38,926 nucleotides of DNA, from positions 1-38,926 of the forward strand of contig CAIYTF010000110.1 of the NCBI GenBank assembly GCA_903929035.1. The letters run 5' to 3'. Shown in pieces: positions 5,194 through 37,848 of the stretch. The translations under genes and the position numbers were made by a program. The notes under the pieces were generated by a model, which ran no database searches, was not told the DNA's origin, and saw nothing but the letters and a program-made list of their open reading frames with translations. The DNA comes from an uncultured Ignavibacteriales bacterium. GTDB taxonomy: Bacteria > Bacteroidota > Ignavibacteria > Ignavibacteriales > Ignavibacteriaceae. Position 1 is the stretch's first letter. The number at the start of each line of letters is the position of its first letter.

Positions 5194-5248
5194 ATATATG
5201 CTTATATACGTTGTTTTAATTTGTATTTTTATGTCTATAGGCGTATAT
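5194..5248 (+). promoter_or_regulatory. Operator-like inverted repeat before mobile mystery protein A
   Basis: The segment ATATATGCTTATATACGT (5194-5211) and the complement of 5231-5248 (ATATACGCCTATAGACAT) agree at 14 of 18 positions. They are separated by 19 bases, giving two inverted half-sites about four helical turns apart, just upstream of the HTH gene. The natural reading is autorepression of the operon by the HTH protein. The second half-site covers the earlier possible start codons (5221 and 5231), which supports the ATG at 5278 as the true start. Confidence 0.5.
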
Positions 5249-5277
5249 TGGGGCAATATTTTGAAAGCTACGTACCA

Positions 5278-5742
5278 ATGGATAAATCGCACAGAAAATT
5301 ACTGATTGAGCAATTAGATAAAAAATTCGATAAATTATCGGAATTAAAAAATGTCGATACTCCGCCGAAAGGTTGGATTTACACGATACGGACTGCCCTT
5401 CATATGTCGCTTGAACAGCTTGCAAAACGTCTGCATAAAACTCAATCAACAGTTCAGGGCTATGAAGCAAGAGAAGCAGATAAAAAGATAACTATCCAAA
5501 AGCTTATGGAAGTTGCTGAAGCACTTGACTGCCATTTTATGTACGGATTTATTCCCAAGGACGGCTCATTGAATAACACTATTGAAAAAAGAGCATTGCT
5601 TACAGCGAAAGAAATAGTTGCCCGTACTTCCCATACAATGCAGCTTGAAGATCAGGGCAATTCCGATGAACGTTTGCGTAATGCAATTAAATCCCGTGCT
5701 GAACTAATTAAAAACGAAATACCAAAATACTTATGGGATTAG
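5278..5742 (+). CDS. Mobile mystery protein A (HTH regulator)
   Basis: The 154-residue protein starts MDKSHRKLLIEQLDKKFDKL and has an Xre-type helix-turn-helix at about residues 35-90 (TIRTALHMSLEQLAKRLHKT, STVQGYEARE). It ends with the family signature EALDCHFMYGFIPKDG, then ARTSHTMQLEDQ and a terminal LWD. This matches the family named mobile mystery protein A, which almost always precedes a Fic-domain partner. Its likely role is DNA binding and repression of its own operon, and perhaps neutralising the Fic protein. I chose the ATG at 5278 because earlier in-frame starts lie inside the operator-like repeat. It overlaps mobile mystery protein B by 10 bp. Confidence 0.88.
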   Translation: MDKSHRKLLIEQLDKKFDKLSELKNVDTPPKGWIYTIRTALHMSLEQLAKRLHKTQSTVQGYEAREADKKITIQKLMEVAEALDCHFMYGFIPKDGSLNNTIEKRALLTAKEIVARTSHTMQLEDQGNSDERLRNAIKSRAELIKNEIPKYLWD

Positions 5743-6329
5743 ATTTAGATTATCAGGATGGCCAGACTCCGCTCGATGAAGATGAAAAGGAAGGGCTGAT
5801 TATTAAAACTATTTCTACCCGCGGTGAACTTGATGAGTTTGAACAGTATGGCGTAGAAAATGCTGTTATGTGGTTAACGAAACGGAAAATTTCTTCCGAT
5901 AAAATCCTCACACAGGATTTTGTTAAAATTTTGCATAAACGTATGTTCGGCACGATATGGAAATGGGCAGGAGAATTCCGTTCATCAAACAAAAATATTG
6001 GCGTGGATAAATATCTGATACCCATTGAACTTAAAAATCTCTTGGATGATTGCCGTTATTGGGTTGAAAATAAGACATTCTCTCAAGATGAAATTGCTGT
6101 CCGCGTTAGTCATCGGATGGTACTGATACATCCGTTTGCCAATGGGAACGGCAGACATTCCCGGTTATATGCCGATACACTTGTCCACAATGGTTTTGGT
6201 CAGCCGTATTTTTCCTGGGGAAGCCGCGATCTTGTTAAACAGGGTGAAGCAAGGGCAATTTATTTGCACGCGCTTCGCTGTGCGGATATGCAGGAGTATG
6301 AACCGTTAATTATTTTTGCCAGATCATAG
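5733..6329 (+). CDS. Mobile mystery protein B (Fic-domain protein)
   Basis: This 198-residue Fic/DOC-fold protein carries the catalytic loop HPFANGNGRHSR, with the catalytic His at residue 133. All residues of the HPFx[DN]GNGRxxR consensus are present, so it should be active in nucleotidyl (usually AMP) transfer to a protein target. Upstream are the family-typical opening LDYQDGQTPLD and LHKRMFGTIWKWAGEFR. It follows mobile mystery protein A with a 10-bp overlap (shared ATGGGATTAG), so the two are translationally coupled. The pair is known from plasmids and genomic islands, and toxin-antitoxin-like behaviour has been suggested. The target is unknown. Confidence 0.9.
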   Translation: MGLDLDYQDGQTPLDEDEKEGLIIKTISTRGELDEFEQYGVENAVMWLTKRKISSDKILTQDFVKILHKRMFGTIWKWAGEFRSSNKNIGVDKYLIPIELKNLLDDCRYWVENKTFSQDEIAVRVSHRMVLIHPFANGNGRHSRLYADTLVHNGFGQPYFSWGSRDLVKQGEARAIYLHALRCADMQEYEPLIIFARS

Positions 6330-18465: not shown

Positions 18466-21366
18466 GTGAGTACTAATACAGCCAATAATTCTACTACTGA
18501 CACTGTAAGCAGCATTCAGTTTAGCGACATTTTTAAACTTGAAGATATCCAGCACTTACAGGACTTATTTTCTGATGCTAATGGTGTAGCTTCTATTATT
18601 ACCTCTCCCGATGGTACCCCGATTACCAATCCAAGCAATTTCTGCAGATTATGCAGTGACATTATTCGTAAGACTGAAAAAGGACTTGCTAATTGTTTAA
18701 AGTCAGATGCCGTGCTTGGCTGCCATAATCCTGCAGGACCGATTGTTCAGCTGTGTCGGAGCGGTGGTCTAAGAGATGCAGGTGCAAGCATTTCTATTGG
18801 CGGATTGCATATTGCCACCTGGTTAATTGGTCAGGTACGGAATGAGCAATTGGACGAACAAAGTATATTAGAATATGCTGATGAAATTGGAGCAGACAGA
18901 GATGGTTTTATGTTGGCTCTGAACGAAGTTCCTGCTATGTCTGCCGTGCAGTTTAACAAAGTATCGAGATTATTGTTTGAATTTGCAAACCAGCTTTCAG
19001 AAAAAGCTTACAAAAATTTACTGTTGAAAAAGCAAATTGACGATCTGGATCAATCAACCGAATTATTACGGGAAAGCGAGGAATCTCTTTCTACTATACT
19101 AAAATTTATTGGTGATGCAGTGATTACTACCGATAAATCAGGGGTTGTCACGATGATGAACCCTGCAGCTGAACAGCTGACAGGATGGAGTATTGCAGAA
19201 GCGAAAAATAAACCATTTAATCTTTTATTTAATATAGTTGATGCAGCTACCGGGAAAATTGTGGATAACCCCGTTGAAAAAGTTATAGCAAGCGGCACAA
19301 TAACAGGAACTGGCAACCACGCGACTGTGATAAGCCGCGATGGTGAAAAATATCAGATCGCGGGTAGTGCTGCATCCATTCGGGACAACCAAGGGAATAT
19401 TGAAACAGTGATATTGGTTTTTTCCGATATCACGGAGAAATACAAGGCAGAAGAAGCATTGATCGAGGCAGAGTGGAAGTTCAGAGCTTTGTTTGAAAAG
19501 GGGCCCATCGGAGTCGCGTATCATAAAATGATCTATGACGATTCGGGAAAACCGATAGATTATTTCTTCATTGATGCAAATGAAAGTTTTAGGAAGCTGA
19601 CCGGTGTTGACCCGCGCGGCAAAAAGGTAACGCAAGCATTCACGGGAATCGAAAATGAACCTTTTGACTGGATCGGAACTTACGGCAAAGTAGCCCAAAC
19701 AGGTGAAACTATACGGTTCGAGCAATATCTCGAGTCTAGTAATCAATGGTACGATTGTGTAGCGTATAGATATAAGCCTGATCACTTTGTAGCGGCTTTC
19801 TTCGAAATAACTAAACGCAAGCAGGCAGAAGAACAGGTGCGTCTCCACGCCGCCATAAGCGATATTTCTCCTCTCGCTATTAATATTTTCGACTTTGATG
19901 GGAATATTCTCTATGCCAACCAAAGGGCTTGTGAAATGCACGGATATTCCAAAGATGAATTTATGGCACTTAATCTGCGAGAACTTAACACCCCTAAAAG
20001 TGCGCTCCTGATAGAAAGCCGAATGCAGGAGATATTTAAAGCAGAGGCTGCTTTCTTTGAGATGGAACATCGCCGTAAAGATGGTTATACTTTTCCATTG
20101 GAAGTTTACGCGAAACGAACCGAGTGGAAAGGGAAACAGGTACTGCTTAGTATCGGAAGCGATATTACGGAGCGCAGGCGGATAGAGTTGGAATTGATTC
20201 AAGCAAAAGAAAAAGCGGAATCTGCTAACAAATTGAAAGATGCGTTTATAGCTAATATGTCGCACGAAATCAGGACACCGCTCAATGGAATTCTCGGGAT
20301 GACCAGCATTATACAAGAAGCATATTCTCAATACGCGGCGGCGGAAGAAGAAAGATTTTTCACATCGATTAAAAGATCTTCAAAGCGGTTAATAAATACC
20401 GTTGACAAAATTCTCAATTTCTCACTTATGCAGATTGGCGATTTTCCTGTTAAGAAAACAGATATTTCCCTTTCGTCAGTTATTGAAGTTCTTATTCGTG
20501 AATATAATCCCTTAGCGGCGGCAAAATCTCTCAAAATACGGTTTAATTCTGCACTTGAAGATGATACTGTTTTTGCAGATGTGAATGGCTTAAATACTGC
20601 ATTTGACAATCTAATTGATAACGCTATAAAATTTACCGAGGCTGGTTTTATTGATATTTCTCTCTATCAAGATGAGAAAAGCAAAATATGCATAGATATT
20701 CGCGACACTGGAACCGGTATTTCCGATGAATATCTAAAGGGACTATTCGAACCATATTCACAGGAAGGGATAGGATATAGCCGGCCTTATGAAGGACTGG
20801 GTTTGGGACTCGCTATAACTAAGAAACTTTTTGTTTTAAATGGTGCTTCAATTTCCGTAAAAAGTAAAAAAGGGGAAGGAACAGCTTTTACTGTTTGTTT
20901 CAATAAGCAAATCGCAAAACAGACGGGTAATAATTTGGCAGTTGAAAAAGAAAAAGAAATAAAACAGAGGCATCTTTCTAAGGTGACTGCAGGAGAGAAG
21001 CCTTGTATTCTTATAGTTGAGGATGATACAGTAAGTCAATTTTATACACAGTCAATTCTTACCAAAAATTACAATATAGTTATTGCAGGCAATGCCGAAA
21101 AAGCTATCCAACTGTTTAATAGCCGGTCATTTGATTTAATACTTATGGATATTTCACTTAGTAAAGGCTTAAACGGGTTGGAATTAACACAGTTTATCAG
21201 GAAAGGTAATATTAATCCGAACATCCCGATAATAGCGGTAACAGGTCACGCTTTTCCTGATGACTATAGAAATGCTATGGAAGCAGGATGCAACGACTTT
21301 CTCACTAAACCATTTCAAAGTTTTCAATTAATTGAGAAAATTGAGAAGATAATCGTTAATGGTTAA
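18466..21366 (+). CDS. Hybrid histidine kinase: PocR sensor, three PAS, HisKA, HATPase, receiver
   Basis: This 966-residue soluble hybrid kinase has no membrane segment. Residues about 15-185 form a PocR-type sensory domain with a Cys-rich FCRLCSDIIRKTEKGLANCL and GPIVQLCRSGGLRDAGASI, a fold that binds small ligands, including hydrocarbon derivatives in related proteins. Three PAS domains follow (about 206-327, 333-450, 456-577), each closing with DIT-E-[RK]-like ends. The HisKA H box is MSHEIRTPLNG with His600. HATPase boxes are NAIKFTEAG, DTGTGIS and GLGLGLAITKKL. The C-terminal receiver has Asp895 in LILMDISL. Start is GTG with GAAGGAA upstream. It lacks an output domain and must pass phosphate to another protein. 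The second kinase gene follows 68 bp later. Confidence 0.92.
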   Translation: MSTNTANNSTTDTVSSIQFSDIFKLEDIQHLQDLFSDANGVASIITSPDGTPITNPSNFCRLCSDIIRKTEKGLANCLKSDAVLGCHNPAGPIVQLCRSGGLRDAGASISIGGLHIATWLIGQVRNEQLDEQSILEYADEIGADRDGFMLALNEVPAMSAVQFNKVSRLLFEFANQLSEKAYKNLLLKKQIDDLDQSTELLRESEESLSTILKFIGDAVITTDKSGVVTMMNPAAEQLTGWSIAEAKNKPFNLLFNIVDAATGKIVDNPVEKVIASGTITGTGNHATVISRDGEKYQIAGSAASIRDNQGNIETVILVFSDITEKYKAEEALIEAEWKFRALFEKGPIGVAYHKMIYDDSGKPIDYFFIDANESFRKLTGVDPRGKKVTQAFTGIENEPFDWIGTYGKVAQTGETIRFEQYLESSNQWYDCVAYRYKPDHFVAAFFEITKRKQAEEQVRLHAAISDISPLAINIFDFDGNILYANQRACEMHGYSKDEFMALNLRELNTPKSALLIESRMQEIFKAEAAFFEMEHRRKDGYTFPLEVYAKRTEWKGKQVLLSIGSDITERRRIELELIQAKEKAESANKLKDAFIANMSHEIRTPLNGILGMTSIIQEAYSQYAAAEEERFFTSIKRSSKRLINTVDKILNFSLMQIGDFPVKKTDISLSSVIEVLIREYNPLAAAKSLKIRFNSALEDDTVFADVNGLNTAFDNLIDNAIKFTEAGFIDISLYQDEKSKICIDIRDTGTGISDEYLKGLFEPYSQEGIGYSRPYEGLGLGLAITKKLFVLNGASISVKSKKGEGTAFTVCFNKQIAKQTGNNLAVEKEKEIKQRHLSKVTAGEKPCILIVEDDTVSQFYTQSILTKNYNIVIAGNAEKAIQLFNSRSFDLILMDISLSKGLNGLELTQFIRKGNINPNIPIIAVTGHAFPDDYRNAMEAGCNDFLTKPFQSFQLIEKIEKIIVNG

Positions 21367-21434
21367 TTATGTAAATTATTTTACCCTTGGATTAAGCGAA
21401 TATTTTGATACTTTAATAGTATGATAGAACATAT

Positions 21435-24400
21435 ATGAGTAATGCTTCAACACGCGAAGAACTTCTTAATGAAGTGGAGGCTTTGAAACTTGAATACAAG
21501 TCTCTGAAAGCTATGTATGAACAAGAAATTTCCGAACACGAAAAGGAACTATGCACATTAAGGGAGAGCAACGAAAAATTCAAAGCAATAGCGAATTATG
21601 CGGCAAGCTGGGAAGTTTGGTTAAGTCCGGAAGGAAAACTCCTTTGGATGAATCCATATTCTATAGAATTGACAGGATATACTCCTGAAGAATATATGGC
21701 GGCAAAAGACTATCTCTCTATGGTGATAGCAGAGGAGGACATTGAATATGCACGAGGAAAATTGACGGAAGCTTTGCAAGGCAGCAGTGCCGATAACATC
21801 GAAACCCGCGTTAAGCATAAAGACGGATCAACTATTTGGGTATCAGTTTCCTGGCGCCCGATATTTGATGCAGCCGGCAATTCACTTGGTTTCCGTACCA
21901 GCACAAAAAATATTATGGAACGGAAGAGGGTGGAAGGATCGCTAAAAGTAAGCGAAATTAAATATCGCGAGCTGGTGAATAATTTTCCGGATGCCATAGT
22001 GATTTATGTTGAAGGGAAAATAGTATTTGTCAATAACGAATTGATTTACTTAATTGGGGCAGCGAACGCGGAAGAATTGATCGGGAAGCCTGTATTAGAA
22101 TATGTTCATCCTGAATATCGCGAGTTTGTTATCGGACGAATGAAAGTGGCGATGTCCGGCAGAACCGCCTCTCCTCCCGCCGATGAGAAGATAATAAAAC
22201 TTGACGGCTCCGCGGTTGATGTTGAAATAAAGGCGATACCGATTACGTTTGAAAACCAATCCGCCGTATTATTGGTTATGCACGATATTACCGAACGCAA
22301 GTTAGCCGAAAAGGAAAGAAAAAAATTTGAGAAAGCGTTCCGGGAGAGTGCGGTAAGGCTAAAACGTGCTGAACTTGCCTCTAAATCAGGGAACTGGGAA
22401 CTGCTTCTTGATTCCAAAATAATGATTGCCTCTGAAGGTGCTGAAAAAATTTATGGGCTGAAAGGCGGACTTTTTGAATATAACGCTGTTAAAAATATTC
22501 CGCTTCCGGAATACAGACCAATTCTTGATAACGCGTTAAAAGGGTTAATTGAAAAAGCCGAGCCTTATAATATTGAATTCAAAATCAAAAACCCCGAGTC
22601 TGGCGAAATAATCGATATCCATTCCGTTGCCGAGTATGACAGAGAAGAACATATTATATTTGGTATTATTCAGGATATCACTGGCCGCAAACGTGTGGAG
22701 AATGAACTTCGCGATAGTGAAAGAATTTTGCATCAGGCGCAGCAAGTCGCGCGTATCGGACATTATGTCACTGATATAAACACCGGCATCTGGAAAAGTT
22801 CTCCCGTGCTTGATGAAATTTTCGGGATTGACCATCTCTTTGTCAGAAATATAGAAAACTGGTCTGCAATAATAGAACCTGAATATCGCGGTAAATTGAC
22901 GGACTATTATTATAAAGTAATAAGCGATAAAACCCGGTTTGAAATGGATTATAAAATTATCCGCCCAAATGACGGACAAAAGCGATGGGTTTCGGCTCTT
23001 GGGGAATTTGATTATGATGCCTCCGGTAACCCGGTACGCCAGATTGGCACCATACAGGACATCACTGAGCGCAAACGAGCCGAAAACGCTCTTAAAGAGA
23101 GTGAAGAGCAATTCCGTAACCTTTTCGTAAATGCGCCGGTTGGAATTTTCCATTCTACCTTGGATGGGCGGCTTCTGGAAACAAATCCTGCTCTCGCAAA
23201 GATGCTGGGATATTTCAATACTAACGAGATAATCGCGTCCACTTCCGATATGAGTACGCAAATATATGTTGACCCGAAAGTTCGCCTGCAGATAATTGAC
23301 GACTTAATGAGAACTGACGGATGGGTACACTACAATGAAGTTATTTGGCAGCGAAAAGATCTCAGCCTCATTACGGTTGAAATGACCGGGCGGAAAGTAT
23401 TGGATGCTGCCGGTGACTTTACCTATTTGGAAGGCTTTATAGTAGATATTACCGAACGGAAACGCGTGGAAGAAGCACTGCGCGAGGGCGAAGAAAAATA
23501 TAGGTCTCTCATTCAATATTCAAGTGATCCTATATTTAGCTTTAATCCTGACGGGACCTACAAATTTGCCAATGAAGCTTTTTCAAAACAATTCGGGAAA
23601 ACCCCTGACGAAGTTATGGGGAAAACTCCGCATTTTCTTTTCCCTTTCGATGTAGCTGAAAAACGATTGGCTTTTGTTCGGAAAGTATTTCAAACAGGAG
23701 AAAAAGGCGAAATCGAATTGAATATTACCACAGCATCCGGAGAACGTAAGTATTTCCTCACAATGATAGACCCTATCAAAGATATTAAAGGAAACATTTT
23801 ATGGGTTTCTTGCGTTTCAAAGGATATAACTGAACGCAAACTGGGGGAAGAGGCATTGCGGGAAAGCGAAGAAAAACACCGCTTTTTGATTGAGCACAGC
23901 TACGATATTATCTATATTCTTACACCTGATGGAATACTCACTTTTGTTTCTCAAGCTTGGACAAACCTATTGGGACACTCTGTATCACAAGTAGAGGGGC
24001 TATCATTCCAGCAATTTGTCCATCCTGATGATATTCCGGAATGCTTAGTTTGGTTACAAAAAGTAATATCAACTGGACAAAGACAAGAGGGCATAGAATA
24101 CCGTATTCGGCACATCAATGGAACCTGGCGTTGGCATACCTCAAGTGCCGTCCCCTTAAGAGATATAAACGGTACCGTCATTGGGTTCGAAGGAACCGCA
24201 AGGGATATTACCGAGCGCAAGCAGGCTGAGGAAGAATTACATAGCACTAATAAACAACTTGAAAAATCTAATTCCGAAAAAGATAAATTATTTTCCATTA
24301 TCGCTCACGATTTAAGAAGTCCTTTCCACGGTCTGCTGGGCTTATCTGAAATTTTGGCAAAAGATAGCGATGAATTATCATCGGAAGAAGTAACAAATTT

Positions 24401-24959
24401 TAGTATTTCACTGCACACCTCTATAGAAAACCTCTATAAACTGATAGAAAATCTATTACAATGGGGGCAGCTCCAAAAAGACTCGATAGAATTTGCCCCG
24501 AAAGTACTCAATTTGTCCAATGCTTTTATTCAAGGTATGGATGCTATTCAGCAAAGAGCACTACAAAAAGGGATTACTATCATCAATGAAATTCCGGAGA
24601 CTCTTAAAATTAATGCCGATGAAAAAATGATTTCTAGTGTTTTGAGAAATCTTTTATCTAACGCGGTAAAATTTACTAGACGGGACGGGAAAGTTATCGG
24701 CAGAGCGCAGGTAACAGAAAACGGAATGATTGAAATATCGGTGACGGACACCGGTACCGGTATGCCGGCTGACATTGTTGAAAAGATATTTAAGATTGGC
24801 GAAAAAGTAGGTAGGCTAGGAACAGAAAACGAACCAAGTACGGGTTTGGGTTTAGTGCTATGCAGGGAATTTGTTGAAAAACACGGCGGCAAAATTTGGG
24901 TTGAAAGCGAAGAAGGCAAGGGAAGTACATTTTATTTTTCACTTAAAAATAATGGTTAA
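21435..24959 (+). CDS. Multi-PAS sensor histidine kinase (seven PAS domains)
   Basis: The 1174-residue soluble kinase opens with a coiled coil (about residues 1-45). Seven PAS/PAC modules follow to about residue 930, each ending in a variant of DITERK. The HisKA box is SIIAHDLRSPFHGLLGLSEI with His958, then HATPase boxes NAVKFTRRDG, DTGTGMPADI and GLGLVLCREFVEKHGG. There is no receiver and no transmembrane segment. The H box differs clearly from that of the flanking hybrid kinases, so it belongs to another HisKA subgroup (AHDLR[ST]P). The second PAS resembles the first PAS of the next gene, suggesting module exchange. It sits between the two hybrids on the same strand. Confidence 0.93.
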   Translation: MSNASTREELLNEVEALKLEYKSLKAMYEQEISEHEKELCTLRESNEKFKAIANYAASWEVWLSPEGKLLWMNPYSIELTGYTPEEYMAAKDYLSMVIAEEDIEYARGKLTEALQGSSADNIETRVKHKDGSTIWVSVSWRPIFDAAGNSLGFRTSTKNIMERKRVEGSLKVSEIKYRELVNNFPDAIVIYVEGKIVFVNNELIYLIGAANAEELIGKPVLEYVHPEYREFVIGRMKVAMSGRTASPPADEKIIKLDGSAVDVEIKAIPITFENQSAVLLVMHDITERKLAEKERKKFEKAFRESAVRLKRAELASKSGNWELLLDSKIMIASEGAEKIYGLKGGLFEYNAVKNIPLPEYRPILDNALKGLIEKAEPYNIEFKIKNPESGEIIDIHSVAEYDREEHIIFGIIQDITGRKRVENELRDSERILHQAQQVARIGHYVTDINTGIWKSSPVLDEIFGIDHLFVRNIENWSAIIEPEYRGKLTDYYYKVISDKTRFEMDYKIIRPNDGQKRWVSALGEFDYDASGNPVRQIGTIQDITERKRAENALKESEEQFRNLFVNAPVGIFHSTLDGRLLETNPALAKMLGYFNTNEIIASTSDMSTQIYVDPKVRLQIIDDLMRTDGWVHYNEVIWQRKDLSLITVEMTGRKVLDAAGDFTYLEGFIVDITERKRVEEALREGEEKYRSLIQYSSDPIFSFNPDGTYKFANEAFSKQFGKTPDEVMGKTPHFLFPFDVAEKRLAFVRKVFQTGEKGEIELNITTASGERKYFLTMIDPIKDIKGNILWVSCVSKDITERKLGEEALRESEEKHRFLIEHSYDIIYILTPDGILTFVSQAWTNLLGHSVSQVEGLSFQQFVHPDDIPECLVWLQKVISTGQRQEGIEYRIRHINGTWRWHTSSAVPLRDINGTVIGFEGTARDITERKQAEEELHSTNKQLEKSNSEKDKLFSIIAHDLRSPFHGLLGLSEILAKDSDELSSEEVTNFSISLHTSIENLYKLIENLLQWGQLQKDSIEFAPKVLNLSNAFIQGMDAIQQRALQKGITIINEIPETLKINADEKMISSVLRNLLSNAVKFTRRDGKVIGRAQVTENGMIEISVTDTGTGMPADIVEKIFKIGEKVGRLGTENEPSTGLGLVLCREFVEKHGGKIWVESEEGKGSTFYFSLKNNG

Positions 24960-25030
24960 CGGATAAATTATGGACGAACTATCCTTTGTTAAACATTTCG
25001 CGGTTTGCCGAGTTCATTGGAGTTCCCGAT

Positions 25031-27652
25031 ATGAATAAAATTTTATATAGCAGAAAATCAATCACAATTGCAGGATTGCTGTTTTTTCTTACAGCAATCC
25101 TGGGAATTCTGTATATCCGGTATTTAAATAATAGGGAAGTAGAAGAACAGTCTGAACAAGCACTTAGCATTGCCAAGGTCGCGGCAAGTGCGCTTGACGG
25201 AGAAAACCTTAAGAAATTGAGAGCAGTTACAGAAGACACAGGAACGACGGTTTACAAGAGCATAAAAAAGCGGCTGATTAACATAAAACATCTTTATCCC
25301 AATTCGCGATTCGCCTACCTCTATACAATGAGAGGAGATAAAATTTATTTTTTAGCGGATTCCGAACCGGCGGATTCAAAAGATTATTCACCTCCGGGAC
25401 AGGAATATGTTGAGGCGGACAATGCCTATAAAAACACTTTTATCAGCGGCAGCGATTCTGTTACTGCTCCTGTTTCCGATAGATGGGGAACTTGGATAAG
25501 CATACTGATTCCTATTAAAGATGAAACCAACGGTAAAACCATTGCCGTGTTTGGAATGGATTATGATTCGTATAACTGGAGCAAATTTTTTGTTTTTCAT
25601 AATGCGGAATACATTATAACGATTACAACATTTATTTTATTTTTATTTTTAACTTTAAAAGTTATCGCAAAAAACACGAACCTTAAAAAGGAAATCCTTG
25701 AACGCCTTTCAGCGGAACAGGCAAGCCAACGGGCGGAAGCGGCATTAAAAGAGAGTGAACAGAAATACCGCGGATTAGTTGAAAATTCACCCGATGCTAT
25801 CGTGATTTACGCGGACGGGAAATTTGTTTATGTTAATAAAGAGTTTATTCATTTAATGGCTGCAACGAGCGAGGACGAATTGATTGGGAAACCAGTTATC
25901 CAAATCGTTCATCAGGATTCCATTGAATTAGTCGTCGAACGAATGCGGAAAGTAGCCGTCGAAGGAACTGTTTTGCCTATTGCCGAAGAGAAATTAATAC
26001 GGTTAGATGGTTCCGTGGTTGAAGTGGAAATTAAGGCAATGTCGATTTGGTTCGAGCATATACTCGCGGTGCAGCTTATTGTCAGCGATATTACCGATAG
26101 AAAACGGGCAGAGACAGAACTACGCAAACTCTCCCAGGCTGTTCAGCAAAGCCCAGTGTCAGTTGTTATAACTGACATTAACGGAACTATCGAGTATGTA
26201 AATCCGAAAACACTTGAAACATCAGGTTATTCTTTGGAAGAATTAATAGGAAACAATCCGCGCATTTTCAGTTCTGGAGAAAAGCATAAAGAGGAGTATA
26301 AAATACTTTGGGATACTATCACTTCAGGCAAAGAATGGCGGGGTGAATTTCACAATAAAAAGAAAAACGGAGAACTTTATTGGGAGTCCGAGTTGATTTC
26401 TCCGATTATCGATGAAAAAGGAAACCTACTTCATTTTCTCGGAGTCAAGGAAGATGTTACTGAAAAAAAACAATTACTTCAAGATTTAATTAATTCAAAA
26501 GAAAAAGCGGAATCGGCGAACAAATTGAAAGACGCGTTTATAGCAAATATGTCGCACGAAATCAGAACACCGCTCAATGGAATTCTCGGGATGACCAGCA
26601 TTATCCAAGAGGCATATTCTCAATACGCGGCAGCTGAAGAAGAAAGGTTTTTCACATCCATTAAAAGATCTTCTAAGCGATTAATAAATACTGTTGACAA
26701 AATTCTGAATTTTTCCCTAATGCAAATTGGTGATTTTCCTGTTAAGAAAGCTGATATTTCGCTGGAGGCAATTATAGGAGGTCTTGTCCCAGAATTTAAT
26801 CAGTTAGCCGCGATGAAATCGCTAAAAATAGGCTTCAATACTACTATTGGCGGGGATACCGTTTTTGCAGATTCTAATGCCATAAAGACTGCATTAGAAA
26901 ATCTAATTGATAACGCGATAAAATTCACTAACACGGGTTCTATCGATATATCGATATACAGAGATAAGCAAAGCAATATATGTGTTGACATCCGTGATAC
27001 GGGAACCGGAATTTCCGAGGAATACCTTCAGGGAATGTTTGAACCTTATTCCCAAGAGGCTATTGGGTATAGCCGCCCTTATGAAGGATTGGGTTTGGGA
27101 CTTGCTATAACGAAAAAACTTCTTGATTTAAACGGAGCATCGATTGCCGTTAAAAGCAAAAAAGGTGAAGGAACATCGTGTACCATTCGCTTTGATATGC
27201 ACGATATGCCGGAAAAGAAAAATAAACCGGAAGAGATTGAAATAGTGCATTCTTCGCTTCCTAATAAAAAGACCAAGAATTTGAAGCCGGCTGTTCTTGT
27301 TGTGGAAGATGATATTGTAAATCAATATTTTATTGAGACAATATTAACCAAAAGCTTCGAAGTTAAAATTGCAGGTGATGCGGCAAAAGCATTAGAGCTG
27401 TTTACAAGCAATTCATTCGATTTAATACTTATGGATATTTCTCTTAAAGAAGGTATGAATGGTTTGGAATTAACCAAAGTTATCAGAGCCGGCAAAAAGA
27501 ATCCGAATATTCCAATTATAGCGGTAACCGGTCACGCGTTTCCCGAAGACTATAGAAATTCAATGGAAGCCGGCTGTAACGATTTTCTCACGAAACCATT
27601 TCAAAGTTTTCAGTTGATTGAGAAAATTGAAAAAATATTTGTTAACGGTTAA
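25031..27652 (+). CDS. Membrane hybrid histidine kinase: Cache-like sensor, two PAS, HisKA, HATPase, receiver
   Basis: Using the ATG at 25031 the protein has 873 residues. A TTG start at 24986 would add 15 residues ahead of the first helix. A membrane helix (SITIAGLLFFLTAILGILYI) is followed by a roughly 150-residue periplasmic region with a Cache-like pattern (SRFAYLYTMRGDKIYFLADS, GTWISILIPIKD, AVFGMDYD) and a second helix (about residues 185-205). Two PAS domains precede HisKA (MSHEIRTPLNG, His509), HATPase (DTGTGIS, GLGLGLAITKKL) and a receiver with Asp802 (LILMDISL). Its HisKA segment is identical in protein to that of the first kinase, and the receiver C-terminus is nearly so. It contains no output domain. 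Confidence 0.92.
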   Translation: MNKILYSRKSITIAGLLFFLTAILGILYIRYLNNREVEEQSEQALSIAKVAASALDGENLKKLRAVTEDTGTTVYKSIKKRLINIKHLYPNSRFAYLYTMRGDKIYFLADSEPADSKDYSPPGQEYVEADNAYKNTFISGSDSVTAPVSDRWGTWISILIPIKDETNGKTIAVFGMDYDSYNWSKFFVFHNAEYIITITTFILFLFLTLKVIAKNTNLKKEILERLSAEQASQRAEAALKESEQKYRGLVENSPDAIVIYADGKFVYVNKEFIHLMAATSEDELIGKPVIQIVHQDSIELVVERMRKVAVEGTVLPIAEEKLIRLDGSVVEVEIKAMSIWFEHILAVQLIVSDITDRKRAETELRKLSQAVQQSPVSVVITDINGTIEYVNPKTLETSGYSLEELIGNNPRIFSSGEKHKEEYKILWDTITSGKEWRGEFHNKKKNGELYWESELISPIIDEKGNLLHFLGVKEDVTEKKQLLQDLINSKEKAESANKLKDAFIANMSHEIRTPLNGILGMTSIIQEAYSQYAAAEEERFFTSIKRSSKRLINTVDKILNFSLMQIGDFPVKKADISLEAIIGGLVPEFNQLAAMKSLKIGFNTTIGGDTVFADSNAIKTALENLIDNAIKFTNTGSIDISIYRDKQSNICVDIRDTGTGISEEYLQGMFEPYSQEAIGYSRPYEGLGLGLAITKKLLDLNGASIAVKSKKGEGTSCTIRFDMHDMPEKKNKPEEIEIVHSSLPNKKTKNLKPAVLVVEDDIVNQYFIETILTKSFEVKIAGDAAKALELFTSNSFDLILMDISLKEGMNGLELTKVIRAGKKNPNIPIIAVTGHAFPEDYRNSMEAGCNDFLTKPFQSFQLIEKIEKIFVNG

Positions 27653-30686: not shown

Positions 30687-33017
30687 ATGAAAATAAGTAC
30701 CATTCTTGTTTTAGTGCTGCTGCTAATATCAAACTTGAGCTATTCGCAGCAGCAGAGCGTTCTACGTGTAGCCGTGCGGGAGAAACAAACGATTCGCGAT
30801 GTTGCAAAAGAGTATTTAAATGATCCCGATTTATGGGAAGAAATTCTTAAGAGCAATAAACTCCGATCTCCATCGGATGTGAAAACCGGTATGGTGCTGA
30901 CTATACCATACAACCAAATTATGAGAGCCAAAAAAGCAATTGACGAAGCCTTGGTTGAAATTCAGAAAGCAACAACTGCCGGTGCAAAATCTTTTGCATC
31001 TGATTTAATGACAAAAGCCATTGCTTCGCATACGCAGGCTATCAAAGAACGAAAATCCGGTAACTGGGATAAGAGTTATCAGCTCGGATCGGAGGCAAAG
31101 CAGGAAGCATTAAACGCGGCGCAGGAAGCCTCTATGAAGAGCGCGACAAAAGGTGAAGCAACCCTTTCTTTTTCAAAAGGAAAAGTTGAATCCAAAAAAT
31201 CAATAGAAAACCTTTGGCGGTCAATTCCTGTATTAGCGAAAATTATCGAGAACGACCGCGTGAGGACACTTTCTGATTCTTATGCTGAAGTTGCTTTTCA
31301 GGACAAAAGTAAAATTAGACTAAGCGAAAACTCTCAGGCGGTCATTCAACGAAACAGAGTTGACTTATTGACAAACCGAAGCGAGGCAAAAGTAACACTT
31401 GAAAAAGGTGATGCTTTCGCGCTGCTTGCCGGCGGAGCACAAGGCAAGAAAAAATTTAATCTTGAAACCCCGGGACTGGAAGCTACCGTCCGCTCCAAAA
31501 CATATTGGGTAAGTAAGGATGATAAAACCGCGAAGGTTGCCAATTATGACGGTGAAATTGATTTAAAATCCAAAAATTCAAAAATTACCTTGAAATCAAA
31601 CCAAGGCGCGTCTTTGCTTGCTTCGGGAACTTTGACACAGCCCAAAGATTTGCTGAAGCGTCCAAATCTTACATCTCCTGTCAATGAAAAAATCGTTTAT
31701 GAAAACAAAATATCATTAGAATGGAGTAAAGTTGATGGGGCGGACAAATACTGGCTGCAAATATCCCGCGATGCCACTTTTAAGACAGCGGTTTTTCAAT
31801 CAAAAGAAATGAAATCAACTGCTCACAATGCCGAATTAGAGCGCGGCAGTTATTATTGGAGAGCAGCGGCTATTGATAAGGATGGATTCCCCGGACCATT
31901 TTCTGATGCACGTTTATTCACGCTCATCGTGAATAACGAGGCTCCTTACTTGACCGTTTCAGAACCTGCAACAAATGTTTTTGTCACGAAGAATGAAATT
32001 GATATAAAAGGCAATACTGAATCACTCGTGAGGGTCAGTATCAATGGTGAGACACTCACGGTTGATGCTTCCGGAGCATTTGAGAAGCATTTTTTGCTGC
32101 ACGAAGGAGTGAATGTTTTTGACGTAGTTGCTATTGATTCAAGCGGTAATAAATCAACTATCACGCGTAAAGTTGATTATTCAAAAGGGCAGGGGTTGTT
32201 CTTGAAATATGACTTGAATACGCTGGGCGGTGAAAAACAAATTTATACTACGAATCAGTCATTAACAATAAAGGGTTCCACGACCGCGGAAACTTTTGTT
32301 ACTGCAATTTCCCATCCGACCGGATTGAAAGTTGCAGCACTTTCTGATTCAACAGGAGAGTTCAGGTTTACTATCTCAAGACTAACAACTAAAAATACGG
32401 TTATTGTTGAGGCTAAAAATAAAGAGGGCAAAATTTTAGTTGACACGATGTATATTTATCTTGATAAAGAATTGCCCGAGATTCGGTTCAACGATGAAAT
32501 TCCGGAAAAAACATCTGATAATTCTCTCGCGGTGATTGGCTTTGTTTCCAATGCTGCCGCGCTGCGGTTAAATGGCTCTGTAATTGAAATTAAGCAAAAT
32601 AAATTTCAGACATTATATGCCTTGAAAGAAGGATTAAATGAATTACTCTTTATCGCGACCAATAAAAATGGGGCAAAAACCAAAGTATATAGAAAAATCT
32701 TCCTTGACTCTGCTCCGCCTGAATTAATAAATTATAAAGCGGTGCCTGCAAAAATTACCGGAACTGGTATTGTTGCTTTTGAAATTAAAGCAAGCGATAA
32801 AACAGGTCTTAAAAAAACTGCCAAACTTATTTATCAATTAGGCGAAGACCTCTTTACCATTTACTTGAGGCTTGATGAAAATACACAAACATATCGCGCC
32901 TCAGAGAATTGCTCTTTTGCCGGCAGTGCTGATGTTAAAATTCGTCTTATTTTGCTGGAAGATCAACTTGGGAACTTGAAAGAGTATAATTTTTTAAATC
33001 AAGATTTGAAGAAATAA
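30687..33017 (+). CDS. Exported LysM and FecR-domain envelope protein
   Basis: The 776-residue protein begins with a signal peptide (MKISTILVLVLLLISNLSYS). A LysM domain follows at about residues 25-78 (YLNDPDLWEEILKSNKL, VKTGMVLTIPYN), which binds peptidoglycan. A helical, Ala- and Lys-rich segment (about 80-160) leads to a FecR-like beta domain at about 185-315 (RLSENSQAVIQ ... LETPGLEATVRSKTYWVSKD). Next are an Fn3-like module (SLEWSKVDGADKYWLQISRD, SYYWRAAAIDKDGFPGP) and about three to four Ig-like repeats of the NxFxxxxLxEGxNxxxxxAxxxxG type. FecR domains of this kind are not tied to sigma factors. The PKD gene starts 4 bases after its stop, so the two proteins probably act together at the cell envelope. 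Confidence 0.88.
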   Translation: MKISTILVLVLLLISNLSYSQQQSVLRVAVREKQTIRDVAKEYLNDPDLWEEILKSNKLRSPSDVKTGMVLTIPYNQIMRAKKAIDEALVEIQKATTAGAKSFASDLMTKAIASHTQAIKERKSGNWDKSYQLGSEAKQEALNAAQEASMKSATKGEATLSFSKGKVESKKSIENLWRSIPVLAKIIENDRVRTLSDSYAEVAFQDKSKIRLSENSQAVIQRNRVDLLTNRSEAKVTLEKGDAFALLAGGAQGKKKFNLETPGLEATVRSKTYWVSKDDKTAKVANYDGEIDLKSKNSKITLKSNQGASLLASGTLTQPKDLLKRPNLTSPVNEKIVYENKISLEWSKVDGADKYWLQISRDATFKTAVFQSKEMKSTAHNAELERGSYYWRAAAIDKDGFPGPFSDARLFTLIVNNEAPYLTVSEPATNVFVTKNEIDIKGNTESLVRVSINGETLTVDASGAFEKHFLLHEGVNVFDVVAIDSSGNKSTITRKVDYSKGQGLFLKYDLNTLGGEKQIYTTNQSLTIKGSTTAETFVTAISHPTGLKVAALSDSTGEFRFTISRLTTKNTVIVEAKNKEGKILVDTMYIYLDKELPEIRFNDEIPEKTSDNSLAVIGFVSNAAALRLNGSVIEIKQNKFQTLYALKEGLNELLFIATNKNGAKTKVYRKIFLDSAPPELINYKAVPAKITGTGIVAFEIKASDKTGLKKTAKLIYQLGEDLFTIYLRLDENTQTYRASENCSFAGSADVKIRLILLEDQLGNLKEYNFLNQDLKK

Positions 33018-33021
33018 TATT

Positions 33022-36000
33022 ATGAAAAAACTTCACTATTTAATCGCGTTTATAATTATTATTTGCCAATCCGGACTATTCGCGCAATCAAGTGCTAATA
33101 TGATTACATTTGGAAAGAATGCTTCGGCAAATGAAGGTGACGACAATAACTTCCAGATATTTTTTATTAAAATTCCATCCTCGATATCAGATTCGCTTAC
33201 TTTGCGCCTCTTTGATCCTGACTGCGGAGGTGTGAATGATCAGAAAGTTGGCGAATGGAACACTGAAACTGAATTTAGTTTGTATGGCGGAAAAGAGGCT
33301 TTTTCAAGTGCCTATTCAAACGATATTTACGGAAAACAGGTTAATTTATATGCAGGCAGCATCTTAGCAAGCAGGAAATACAGCATTGACCCATATACAG
33401 ACAATGAATGGATTGACTTTGCCAAGTTTATTCCCGCGGCCGGTGCAGAATATGAATCGTATCATATTTTGAAACTAACAGTAACCGGTCTTAAAGGTGA
33501 TGATGGCAATACTTTCAACTTATTCGTTTCAAAAAAGTCCGGCTTAAATGTACCGGTAGAAGGAGTTGAAATATTCTCATATAACCCGTCACTTCGTATT
33601 GACAAGAAAAAATATGACCCTATACTTAGATTCCGTACTAATAGCGAAACGGCTATCGAGGCAGCTAATTACGATGCCGCGAACGCGCCATTAACATTAC
33701 AAACACCTGTCAGGTCAAATCTGGCTCTTCGCTCATCGGGAGATGGAGTGTGGGAACGCTCGTCAATAACATTGAATGAGTTTGAAACAAATAAAGTTTG
33801 CGGGATTATCATTGGTAAAGGAAGCGAATCACCCAATGACGTGACTTTTTATGCTCGTACAAAAAGCGGTGAATATTTGCCGATGCTTCTTCCTGTCGAA
33901 TCTCAACGTTCAAATAGCAGCCCTGAAATAGTAAAAACTATTGAATTTCTGAATGACTGTTATTCTGTGGTAATTGATGCAACCGGCACAATAGATAAAG
34001 ACGGCGATATAATAAGTTTTAGTTGGGATTTTGGTGACGGCACTAAAGGCGAAGGCAACCGTGTTGTTCATAAGTATCCTGAAAGGAAAAGCTATACCGT
34101 GAAACTTCTTGCTTCCGATAATTCAGGCACGGTTGGCAATGACAGTTATGTTATTTTTCAAGTTCCTGTAAACAAATCACCTGCTGCTAATTTTAGTTTT
34201 AAGCAAATTGCTGCTCCTAACGAAAAAGTTACGTTTGATGCTTCTTCTTCAAGCGATGAAGATGGTGTTGTAACAAAATATAATTGGGATTTCGGTGATG
34301 GTTCAACAGGTGATGGTAAAATATATACTCATTCATATAACAAATCGGGAAAATATACAATTGAGTTAACTGTCCGCGATAACTCAACATCACCTTGTAA
34401 TTTCGGGAAAATATCCAAAGAGATATGGGTAAACGCTGAACCGGTGGCTAAGGCGGGACAAGACAGCTGGGCGGCAATTGGTGATGAAGTCCGCTTTGAT
34501 GCTTCCGCGAGTTTTGATCCGGATGGCAAGATAAGCAAATATTCTTGGGATTTTGGCGATGGTGCCAAATCATCAGGCGAAAAAGTAACACACAGCTATA
34601 ATAAATCAGGCAGATATAAAGTAACCCTGCGTGTAGATGATGACGCGGATGTTGCTAACAGTTTTTCTATGGATAACTTAACCATTAAGGTAAATTTTCC
34701 TCCTGTTGCTAAAGCTGGAAAAGACCAAATAGTAGCTCAGCGTGAGGTAGTATATTTCTCAGGCAGTGAATCGTCAGATGAAGATGGAGAAATAGTAAAG
34801 TATGAATGGGCTTATGGTGACGGGGCTTATGGTGAAGGTATAAACGTTTCTCACGCCTACGCGAACCCGGGCAAATATAAGGTTCATTTAAGAATCACTG
34901 ACAATTCAGGTACAAAATCAGCTTATGCCGATGACGAGTTAACTGTCATTGTTAATGATGTGCCGAAAGTTACTATTGGCGGTGAGATACTTGTTACCGA
35001 GAGTGCCGTGCAGTTTGACGGAAGTGGCGCGGTGGATAATGATGGAACAATTTCAAGGTATGAATGGGATTTCGGTGATGGTTCAAAGAGTAATGAAAAA
35101 TCTCCGCTTCATATATATAAGAATTTCGGCGTTTATATTGTTAAGTTAAAAGTTTTAGATAATAGCGGAACTGTAAATAACAGTGCAGAGGCATATAAAA
35201 AAGTGACAATAAACGCCAAACCTGTTGCTGACGCGGGTATGAATAAAATTGGTGCCCCCGTACAAGTTATTGAGTTTTCAGGTGCCGGCTCATTTGACCC
35301 GGATGGCACTATTGCAGATTATGAATGGAATATGGGTGACGGTACAGTCCTGCACGGGAAAGTTATTCAGCATACATATTCCAAGCAGGGATTATACCGA
35401 GTTAAACTAAAAGTAATTGACAATACCTTACAGTCAAACGCGGTCAGCTTTAGCGAGATTACTGCAACAATAAACGGGAAACCCACCGCTGTTGCCGGTT
35501 CTGATATTATTGCCGCGCCTATGCAGAATTTTGAATTAGATGGTTCAAAGTCTTTTTCCGGCAGCGGAACAATTTCTAAATACGAATGGGAAATTTCACC
35601 GGGGTTAGGCATTGTTGAAGGTAAAACTGTCATGCGGACAATAAAACAACCGGGGACATATTTTGCTATTTTAACCGTGACGGATAACAGCGGAGCGATT
35701 AACGCCACCGCGATAGATACAATTAAAATTAAAATAAATTCACAGCCTGTTTCTAATTCAGGGAAGAATGTTTATACTTGCGAGCGAAAACTTACATTTG
35801 ATGGTTCCTCATCAACCGATGCAGATGGAGACCCATTGACATATATTTGGAATTTTGGTGACGGCTCCCCAACTGAAAAAGGAATGCAGGTTACTCACAC
35901 TTTTATTAAAGGAGGAACCTACCCGATTGTTCTTACCGTTGATGATGGTATGAAGGTTGCTAATTCAACAAGTACATCTTCGATTACAGTTAAAATAAAT

Positions 36001-37848
36001 GAACCGCCGCTTGCAAATGCAGGTTCTGATATGATTGTTTGCGCCGGCGAAACTGTCCGATTCAACGGAGGTGAATCTAAAGACCCTGAAAACGGTGTAT
36101 TAAAATATTTATGGGATTTTGGCGAAGGTTCAAAAGGCGAGGGAATGAATCCTACAAAGATATATAAGCTGGGCGGCACATATCAAGTAACTCTTAAAGT
36201 CGAAGATGATTCCGGTTTACCGTGCAATTCAGATAATAATAGTATTGTCGTGGTAGTGAGTGAATCGCCGGTTGCGCGTGCAGGAAAAGATATGATTGCC
36301 TGCGCTAACGCTGTTTTAAAATTTGATGGAAGTGCATCAACTAATTATGACGGTGTTGTAAATAATTATTCTTGGGATTTCGGCGATGGAACTGTTGGCG
36401 GAGGTTCTATGCCGACACACAGTTATGCCAAACCCGATGTTTATCGTGTAACGCTTACTATAACAGGCGATGTAAAAGGTGAGTGCGATAATACCGACAG
36501 TGACCAGATTACTGTAACAGTTTATGATGCGCCAAAAGTTGATTTTACTATTCCGCAGAATTATCCTGTCGGGAAAGTTTTAACACTTTCCGCGAAACCT
36601 GAAATTGGGAAAAGTGTTGAAATTCTTGAATATGTCTGGGATTTTGGAGATGGCTCATCGGCAAAAGGTCAGACGGTTAACAAAACATATACTAAATACG
36701 GCAATTATTTCGCTCGTGTAACTATAACGACAGATGCAAAAACTGACTGCCATACTGCTACAACGCAAAAATTGATAGTGGTGAATGAAAAACCGGTTTC
36801 AAAAATTATAGCGAATAATAAAGTTGGGTTAAATCAACCGCTTGATTTCAGCGGTGCCGCTTCTAAAGATGCAGACGGGTCTTTACAGGTTTATGAATGG
36901 AACTTCGGTGATGGCCAAAAAGGAAGCGGCATCAATGTACGCCGCCAATATTCAAAGTCAGGATACTATTATGTGACTCTCCGCGTGAAAGATAATACAA
37001 ATCTGGAAAATAATTTTGATGTTGACACTTTGAAAGTTAGAGTAAATGAAACTCCTGTACCTATTGCTGATTTCAAAGCATCTGTTACACCCTGTGAAGA
37101 AGTTACCTTTGAGGCTGCCCGTTCAAGTGATAAAGATGGAACAATTAAATCATATAGCTGGAATTTTGGTGATGGATACACTGCCGAAGGAGTTTCTGTT
37201 AAACATATATACCCTGTCGAGGGTATTTATAATGTATCTTTAAGTGTTGATGATGGTGATAATCTTGCAAACAGCCGCGATGAAGTTGTACGACCGATTA
37301 AAGTAAATTCACGTCCCCAAGTTGTACTCGGACCAAGCAGAAATATCTGTCCCGGGGAGGTGTTGTCATTAGTCCCAAAGAAAGTATTTGATGCCGATAA
37401 TACTGAATTTAACTACAAGTGGAATGTCAGCGATGGATTCTCGTCAAGCGAGAAAGAGCTAAAACATTCATTTGCAAGACCGGGTGTTTACAGTGTTGCT
37501 TTGACGATTGACGATAAAGAAAACACTTCGTGTTCGCAGGCAGCTGACACAGTTCAAATTCTTGTAAATTCGGCACCCGTTATAAAAGTAATTCATCCGG
37601 ATAACGGATTTACTGGCGGAGCGCACGATGAAATATTGCTTGATGCCGCAGCCTCATCTGATGCCGATGGTGATGCACTTGACTTTATATGGGATTTTGG
37701 TGACGGAACAAAAGGCTCCGGTGCAACGGTTTACCATTTGTATGAGAAATCGGGTACTTTTCAAGTCCGTTTGACAGTTTCGGATAATATAAATACAAAC
37801 TGCAGTTCTTCAACTGCAGCATTTTCTTTAGTAATTAAAAAGCATTAA
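33022..37848 (+). CDS. Giant exported protein with about fifteen PKD repeats
   Basis: The 1608-residue protein has a signal peptide (LIAFIIIICQSGLFAQS) and a unique N-terminal domain of about 290 residues (NEGDDNNFQIFFIKIPSSIS, LRLFDPDCGGVND). From about residue 300 to the end it is made of tandem PKD domains. I count 15 copies of the W-[DN]-F-G-D-G core, of which three are degenerate (WNMGDG, WEISPG, WNVSDG), each followed by H-x-Y-x-x-x-G-x-Y-x-V-x-L. Calcium-binding-like acidic loops (DADGD) recur. It ends within the last PKD with no T9SS sorting domain or anchor. The spaces to its neighbours are 4 bases on each side, a tight operon. A likely role is adhesion or an extended surface scaffold. 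Confidence 0.9.
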   Translation: MKKLHYLIAFIIIICQSGLFAQSSANMITFGKNASANEGDDNNFQIFFIKIPSSISDSLTLRLFDPDCGGVNDQKVGEWNTETEFSLYGGKEAFSSAYSNDIYGKQVNLYAGSILASRKYSIDPYTDNEWIDFAKFIPAAGAEYESYHILKLTVTGLKGDDGNTFNLFVSKKSGLNVPVEGVEIFSYNPSLRIDKKKYDPILRFRTNSETAIEAANYDAANAPLTLQTPVRSNLALRSSGDGVWERSSITLNEFETNKVCGIIIGKGSESPNDVTFYARTKSGEYLPMLLPVESQRSNSSPEIVKTIEFLNDCYSVVIDATGTIDKDGDIISFSWDFGDGTKGEGNRVVHKYPERKSYTVKLLASDNSGTVGNDSYVIFQVPVNKSPAANFSFKQIAAPNEKVTFDASSSSDEDGVVTKYNWDFGDGSTGDGKIYTHSYNKSGKYTIELTVRDNSTSPCNFGKISKEIWVNAEPVAKAGQDSWAAIGDEVRFDASASFDPDGKISKYSWDFGDGAKSSGEKVTHSYNKSGRYKVTLRVDDDADVANSFSMDNLTIKVNFPPVAKAGKDQIVAQREVVYFSGSESSDEDGEIVKYEWAYGDGAYGEGINVSHAYANPGKYKVHLRITDNSGTKSAYADDELTVIVNDVPKVTIGGEILVTESAVQFDGSGAVDNDGTISRYEWDFGDGSKSNEKSPLHIYKNFGVYIVKLKVLDNSGTVNNSAEAYKKVTINAKPVADAGMNKIGAPVQVIEFSGAGSFDPDGTIADYEWNMGDGTVLHGKVIQHTYSKQGLYRVKLKVIDNTLQSNAVSFSEITATINGKPTAVAGSDIIAAPMQNFELDGSKSFSGSGTISKYEWEISPGLGIVEGKTVMRTIKQPGTYFAILTVTDNSGAINATAIDTIKIKINSQPVSNSGKNVYTCERKLTFDGSSSTDADGDPLTYIWNFGDGSPTEKGMQVTHTFIKGGTYPIVLTVDDGMKVANSTSTSSITVKINEPPLANAGSDMIVCAGETVRFNGGESKDPENGVLKYLWDFGEGSKGEGMNPTKIYKLGGTYQVTLKVEDDSGLPCNSDNNSIVVVVSESPVARAGKDMIACANAVLKFDGSASTNYDGVVNNYSWDFGDGTVGGGSMPTHSYAKPDVYRVTLTITGDVKGECDNTDSDQITVTVYDAPKVDFTIPQNYPVGKVLTLSAKPEIGKSVEILEYVWDFGDGSSAKGQTVNKTYTKYGNYFARVTITTDAKTDCHTATTQKLIVVNEKPVSKIIANNKVGLNQPLDFSGAASKDADGSLQVYEWNFGDGQKGSGINVRRQYSKSGYYYVTLRVKDNTNLENNFDVDTLKVRVNETPVPIADFKASVTPCEEVTFEAARSSDKDGTIKSYSWNFGDGYTAEGVSVKHIYPVEGIYNVSLSVDDGDNLANSRDEVVRPIKVNSRPQVVLGPSRNICPGEVLSLVPKKVFDADNTEFNYKWNVSDGFSSSEKELKHSFARPGVYSVALTIDDKENTSCSQAADTVQILVNSAPVIKVIHPDNGFTGGAHDEILLDAAASSDADGDALDFIWDFGDGTKGSGATVYHLYEKSGTFQVRLTVSDNINTNCSSSTAAFSLVIKKH

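Follow-up and report, generated by a model that had tools for sequence, protein, structure and literature searches.

Identical DHp segments in two neighbouring hybrid histidine kinases of an uncultured Ignavibacteriales bacterium: a probable old, domain-limited gene conversion tract

In myxobacteria, two-component systems (TCS) are described as evolving by duplication and domain shuffling, and gene conversion is named as a possibility in TCS-rich genomes (PMC4603909). A precedent for conversion limited to one domain between bacterial paralogs is provided by domain 3 of RF1 and RF2 (PMC4530459). In histidine kinases, partner specificity is set by residues of the DHp interface (PMC10160972); in the portion of the open-access literature available, judged by titles, abstracts and some passages, no paper was found to report conversion affecting the DHp segments of such kinases. 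The two kinases considered here, namely A and C, present nothing unusual in their architecture as hybrid histidine kinases, variable sensors being typical of the class. Like RF1/RF2, they appear to have one functional domain homogenised in both paralogs with flanking domains keeping an old divergence but, unlike RF1/RF2, for which two independent cases were inferred by phylogeny, they are duplicated kinases of one cluster in one known genome (PMC4530459). Like the myxobacterial TCS, they are lineage-specific paralogs with varied input domains and a common core, from which they differ in giving direct sequence evidence of a DHp conversion tract (PMC4603909). The A/C tract would thus clearly exemplify a process that is already known.

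The window, i.e., the whole stretch of 38,926 nucleotides that was analysed (contig C110), carries kinases A, B and C as three co-directional neighbours (Table 1). The intergenic gaps are of 68 bp between A and B and 26 bp between B and C and, being adjacent, co-directional and so closely spaced, the three genes may be co-expressed. In both A and C, the HisKA (PF00512), HATPase_c (PF02518) and receiver (PF00072) domains score above the curated Pfam cut-offs, and the alignment exhibits the His box SHEIRTP, the ATP-lid glycine motifs, the N and G boxes, and the receiver Asp/Thr/Lys; by domain content, A and C are thus assigned to the hybrid histidine kinases, with autophosphorylation and phosphotransfer to a downstream HPt as predicted activities. 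The DHp-CA of kinase B is only 25% identical to that of kinase A. One PAS domain is common to B and C (21943-22252 and 25746-26055; about 67% DNA identity, 52% protein identity over 160 aa), a further sign of module sharing inside the cluster.

Table 1. Coordinates in the window of the three kinases and of the regions compared between A and C.
Feature	Position	Strand	Remarks
Kinase A: hybrid histidine kinase, PocR - PAS domains - HisKA - HATPase_c - receiver	18466..21366	+	966 aa; GTG start putative
Kinase A, identical DHp tract (proposed converted)	20206..20457	+	84 aa identical to kinase C; A residues 581-664
Kinase A, CA (HATPase_c) region	20458..20904	+	70% identity to C; old silent divergence (dS about 2-5)
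Kinase A, receiver	21007..21345	+	from NPNIPII (21214-21363) 47/50 residues as in C; silent dS about 1.2
Kinase B: multi-PAS HisKA-HATPase_c kinase lacking a receiver, located between A and C	21435..24959	+	
Kinase C: hydrophobic membrane-type N-terminus - PAS - PAS - HisKA - HATPase_c - receiver	24986..27652	+	TTG opens the ORF; ATG at 25031 likelier
Kinase C, identical DHp tract (proposed converted)	26498..26749	+	
Kinase C, CA region	26750..27196	+	
Kinase C, receiver	27293..27631	+	C-terminal half 27500-27649

The genome (3.36 Mb, 222 contigs) contains 109 kinase-like matches, among which eight kinases have a common DHp-CA-REC core, with 54-100% identity to that of A (39% for the next kinase), under sensors that differ across the family, i.e., PocR-PAS, PAS-PAS, GAF-PAS, TPR-PAS, and REC-PAS. 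Within this family, A and C group together as sisters for the receiver (support 96/94) and for the combined core (99/98), but only weakly for CA (62/50), the CA of A being about equally near to that of kinase C73 (69%) and that of C (70%). Sister position in the receiver and combined-core trees indicates that A and C are most likely duplicates of one core whose DHp was renewed later. For a phylogeny of the tract itself, neither the 80 genomes of the family nor the genome-contig scan yielded an ortholog of A or C that was close enough. Another member of the family, kinase C61 (L147:1138-6032), has a phage gene of Mu-portal-like type on one side and a gene for a HydF-like hydrogenase maturase on the other.

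The original prediction counted by eye 20 base differences in 253 between the HisKA-coding segments of A and C, all at third codon positions, and this count is exact: 20205-20457 and 26497-26749 align without gaps, every difference falling at a third position in both frames, and the about 84 identical residues anticipated form an uninterrupted run of 84 aa (KEKAESANK...GDFPVKK). The contrast drawn with the rest of the proteins likewise holds, since the ATP-binding domains are clearly diverged (CA 70% identical) and the C-terminal halves of the receivers nearly identical (47 of the last 50 residues), against 73% identity over the whole receiver. Upstream of the tract, A and C are unlike, with PocR and PAS in A and a membrane-type N-terminus and two PAS in C; the left end of the tract is the exact point where A-C homology ceases. 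From a regression of DHp on CA identity over the 252 other pairs of the family, which are not independent of each other, 74% DHp identity is predicted for A-C, whereas 100% is observed, i.e., a deviation of 4.8 residual s.d. In the other six paralogs, the segment is 65-74% identical to that of A and C: the same segment is thus not carried by homologous kinases elsewhere in the genome, the complete identity is specific to the A-C pair, and a generally frozen DHp domain is ruled out as its cause. Assembly collapse is also an unlikely source, considering that the two copies lie on one contig and differ at 20 sites.

The age of the silent sites was estimated by pairwise codon maximum likelihood (GY94-type model, family codon frequencies, kappa fixed at 1.5, 2.5 or 4). 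Across kappa 1.5-4, the A-C estimates of dS are 0.55-0.57 for DHp, against 2.2-5.5 for CA and 1.6-3.3 for REC, the tract having been picked for its protein identity and the saturated values being imprecise; a single dS common to all domains is rejected (2dL 12.5-17.2, p 0.002 to 0.0002). At identical residues, the same codon is used in 61/81 positions of DHp, 60/105 of CA, and 55/88 of REC (Fisher p 0.013). Compared codon by codon, as had been proposed together with the original prediction, the silent sites of DHp are several-fold younger than those of CA and REC. As a control, the remaining 20 pairs that can be formed from the seven closer in-genome paralogs all reach a DHp dS of 1.6 or more; besides, the silent log odds ratio of DHp vs CA+REC is highest for A-C (+0.71), the mean of the other 252 pairs being -0.17, which indicates that conserved silent sites are not an inherent property of this domain. 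Along the tract, dS follows a gradient from 0.32 in the 5' half to 1.0 in the 3' half, then is about 3-6 in the CA halves and the first REC half, and 1.2 in the last 50 receiver codons; the gradient and the value at the receiver end may be due to exchange that was patchy or took place repeatedly. When 277 silent sites were scanned without preset boundaries, the top tract opened at the DHp start and extended into CA, but was not significant (permutation p 0.24); the support comes from the comparison of DHp with the rest.

Taken together, these observations make it probable that an old, DHp-limited gene conversion occurred between hybrid-kinase duplicates of one cluster and was accompanied by strong purifying selection. 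Kinases A and C would have arisen as duplicates of a DHp-CA-REC core under different sensors and, following duplication, some 250 bp spanning the DHp would have been copied from one gene to the other, either by gene conversion or by double crossover, between paralogs lying 6.3 kb apart in direct orientation. Such copying would have reset both protein and silent differences in the DHp, while CA and receiver would have retained their older divergence. The tract would since then have gained some 20 silent differences but not one amino-acid replacement, the latter on account of strong purifying selection on the DHp, and its dS, still about 0.55, suggests that the event was old. Both the mechanism and the single event are what we infer from this pattern. 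Gene conversion across the whole region had been put forward as an outcome that would speak against the original prediction; a conversion signal does exist, but it is confined to the DHp tract. Counting against the conversion reading, besides the boundary-free scan, are that zero replacements is somewhat below the usual DHp omega expectation (p about 0.003-0.05), and that both tract ends are domain ends, as would also be expected under selection, although at the left end A-C homology stops as well.

Among the alternatives, pair-specific purifying selection alone, without recombination, where the surfaces of A and C would be kept for mixed dimers or for one HPt or regulator, appears unlikely, although constraint on the protein is real. 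With no replacements against 20 silent changes, omega in the DHp tract is about 0, which, tested against fixed values with the younger age of the tract allowed for, gives p 0.05 vs omega 0.02, 0.017 vs 0.03, and 0.003 vs 0.05, the other in-genome pairs having DHp omega mostly of 0.026-0.05 with a few up to 0.11; in the C-terminal half of the receiver, omega between A and C is 0.02. The modest excess of DHp constraint could come from ordinary DHp constraint, from repeated conversion or from a need for compatible partners. The possible co-expression of A, B and C, given their adjacency, common direction and small gaps, also speaks for this alternative. Nonetheless, selection alone leaves unexplained the several-fold younger silent sites of DHp relative to CA and REC, and in the receiver C-terminal half, where protein identity is almost as high, silent divergence is roughly double (dS 1.2). 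The original view of surfaces held fixed by constraint is thus retained for the amino acids, in both DHp and receiver C-terminal half, but not as selection acting alone on two old copies. Since protein-level selection alone should not rejuvenate silent sites, an old conversion tract combined with purifying selection fits best.

In hybrid kinases, it is the receiver rather than the DHp on which HPt proteins dock; a common HPt would thus account for the receivers but leave the DHp identity unexplained. Among the annotated proteins of the window, neither an HPt nor a stand-alone regulator was found, which weighs further against selection for a common partner. Regarding the lone HPt for which a search had been suggested, the genome gave 13 HPt matches, none of them free-standing: 11/13 are in ORFs of 622-1283 aa and 2/13 in REC-HPt proteins located outside the window and labelled C165 and C84, one of which sits in a locus with MotA/MotB-like and FliW-like genes. 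Similarly, no stand-alone response regulator was found in the scanned ORFs flanking six related kinases (C127, C73, C61, C165, G1a, and G1b), the flanks of which encode unrelated enzymes, a chemoreceptor, a Mu-portal-like protein, and further kinases. An HPt docking on both A and C would therefore be possible but unsupported, and the same applies to A-C mixed dimers, which would be physically plausible given the identical DHp domains. Taking specificity as set by the DHp interface (PMC10160972), identical DHp domains make cross-talk a plausible consequence; with the same dimer and receiver-docking surfaces, A and C could cross-talk, this being a likely consequence rather than an established cause of the identity.

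A related possibility, which we regard as doubtful, is that conversion was recurrent and kept by selection because functional A-C mixed dimers would combine PocR/PAS with the membrane-associated input of C. Were it true, the DHp would be copied time and again, and the interface would stay suited to mixed dimers despite the divergence of sensors and catalytic domains.

There is also a slim chance that the tract is a by-product of sensor swapping, where a PocR-PAS sensor would have been joined to the core by one recombination whose crossover in the DHp homogenised the segment. The identical tract does start exactly where A-C homology ends, its dS climbs from 0.32 at the 5' side to 1.0 at the 3' side, and the PAS preceding the DHp is common to C, C127, C61, C119, C165, and G1b (57-69% identity to C61) but absent from A. 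On the other hand, donor DNA set within a gene that is old in its other parts requires two ends, and a single crossover would have renewed CA and REC too. Sensor swapping is in fact a variant of the conversion model, the two being inseparable with these data. Lastly, conservation of the DNA of the segment itself, by RNA structure or an overlapping antisense gene, is very improbable, for although a mechanical antisense ORF (19225-20331) covers half of the A tract, no antisense ORF of at least 100 aa is listed at the C tract, and the paralog controls disfavour it, the other in-genome pairs agreeing on average less often in DHp than in CA+REC silent codons.

Exchange of cores can also be recognised elsewhere in the family. 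Kinases C73 (G000:C73, L146:3136-5964) and G1a (G001:C133, L155:2307-5120), whose hosts are two species of one genus, have a common TPR-PAS sensor with 59% identity over 526 aa; yet the core of C73 is nearer to those of A, C, C127 and C61 of its own genome (DHp 68-73%, CA 63-69%) than to that of G1a (DHp 58%, CA 52%), and the AU test (p 0.022) rejects a tree in which C73 is constrained to group with G1a. With orthologous-looking sensors and cores that group apart, this pair is a case of core or sensor exchange between paralogs, and its pattern is analogous to that expected of conversion, where a tract would group by genome and its flanks by ortholog. In a further genome, G009, the receivers of kinases G9b and G9d (C12 and C62; L054, L059) are identical over some 40 consecutive aa and have a REC dS of 0.42, their DHp and CA being saturated and G9d lying at a contig end. 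An apparent sign of a common interaction surface can thus stem from an old conversion tract, and it is the age of silent sites, not protein identity alone, that tells one from the other. If core exchange is common in expanded families of hybrid kinases, orthology and specificity predictions based on the DHp would be misleading there.

Apart from the kinase cluster, the window encodes a 1608-aa protein with 15 PKD-domain stretches (33022-37848), which adjoins a FecR-domain protein (30687-33017), as well as, at 5221-6329, an HTH protein and, next to it with an overlap, a Fic/DOC protein, possibly a toxin-antitoxin-like pair.
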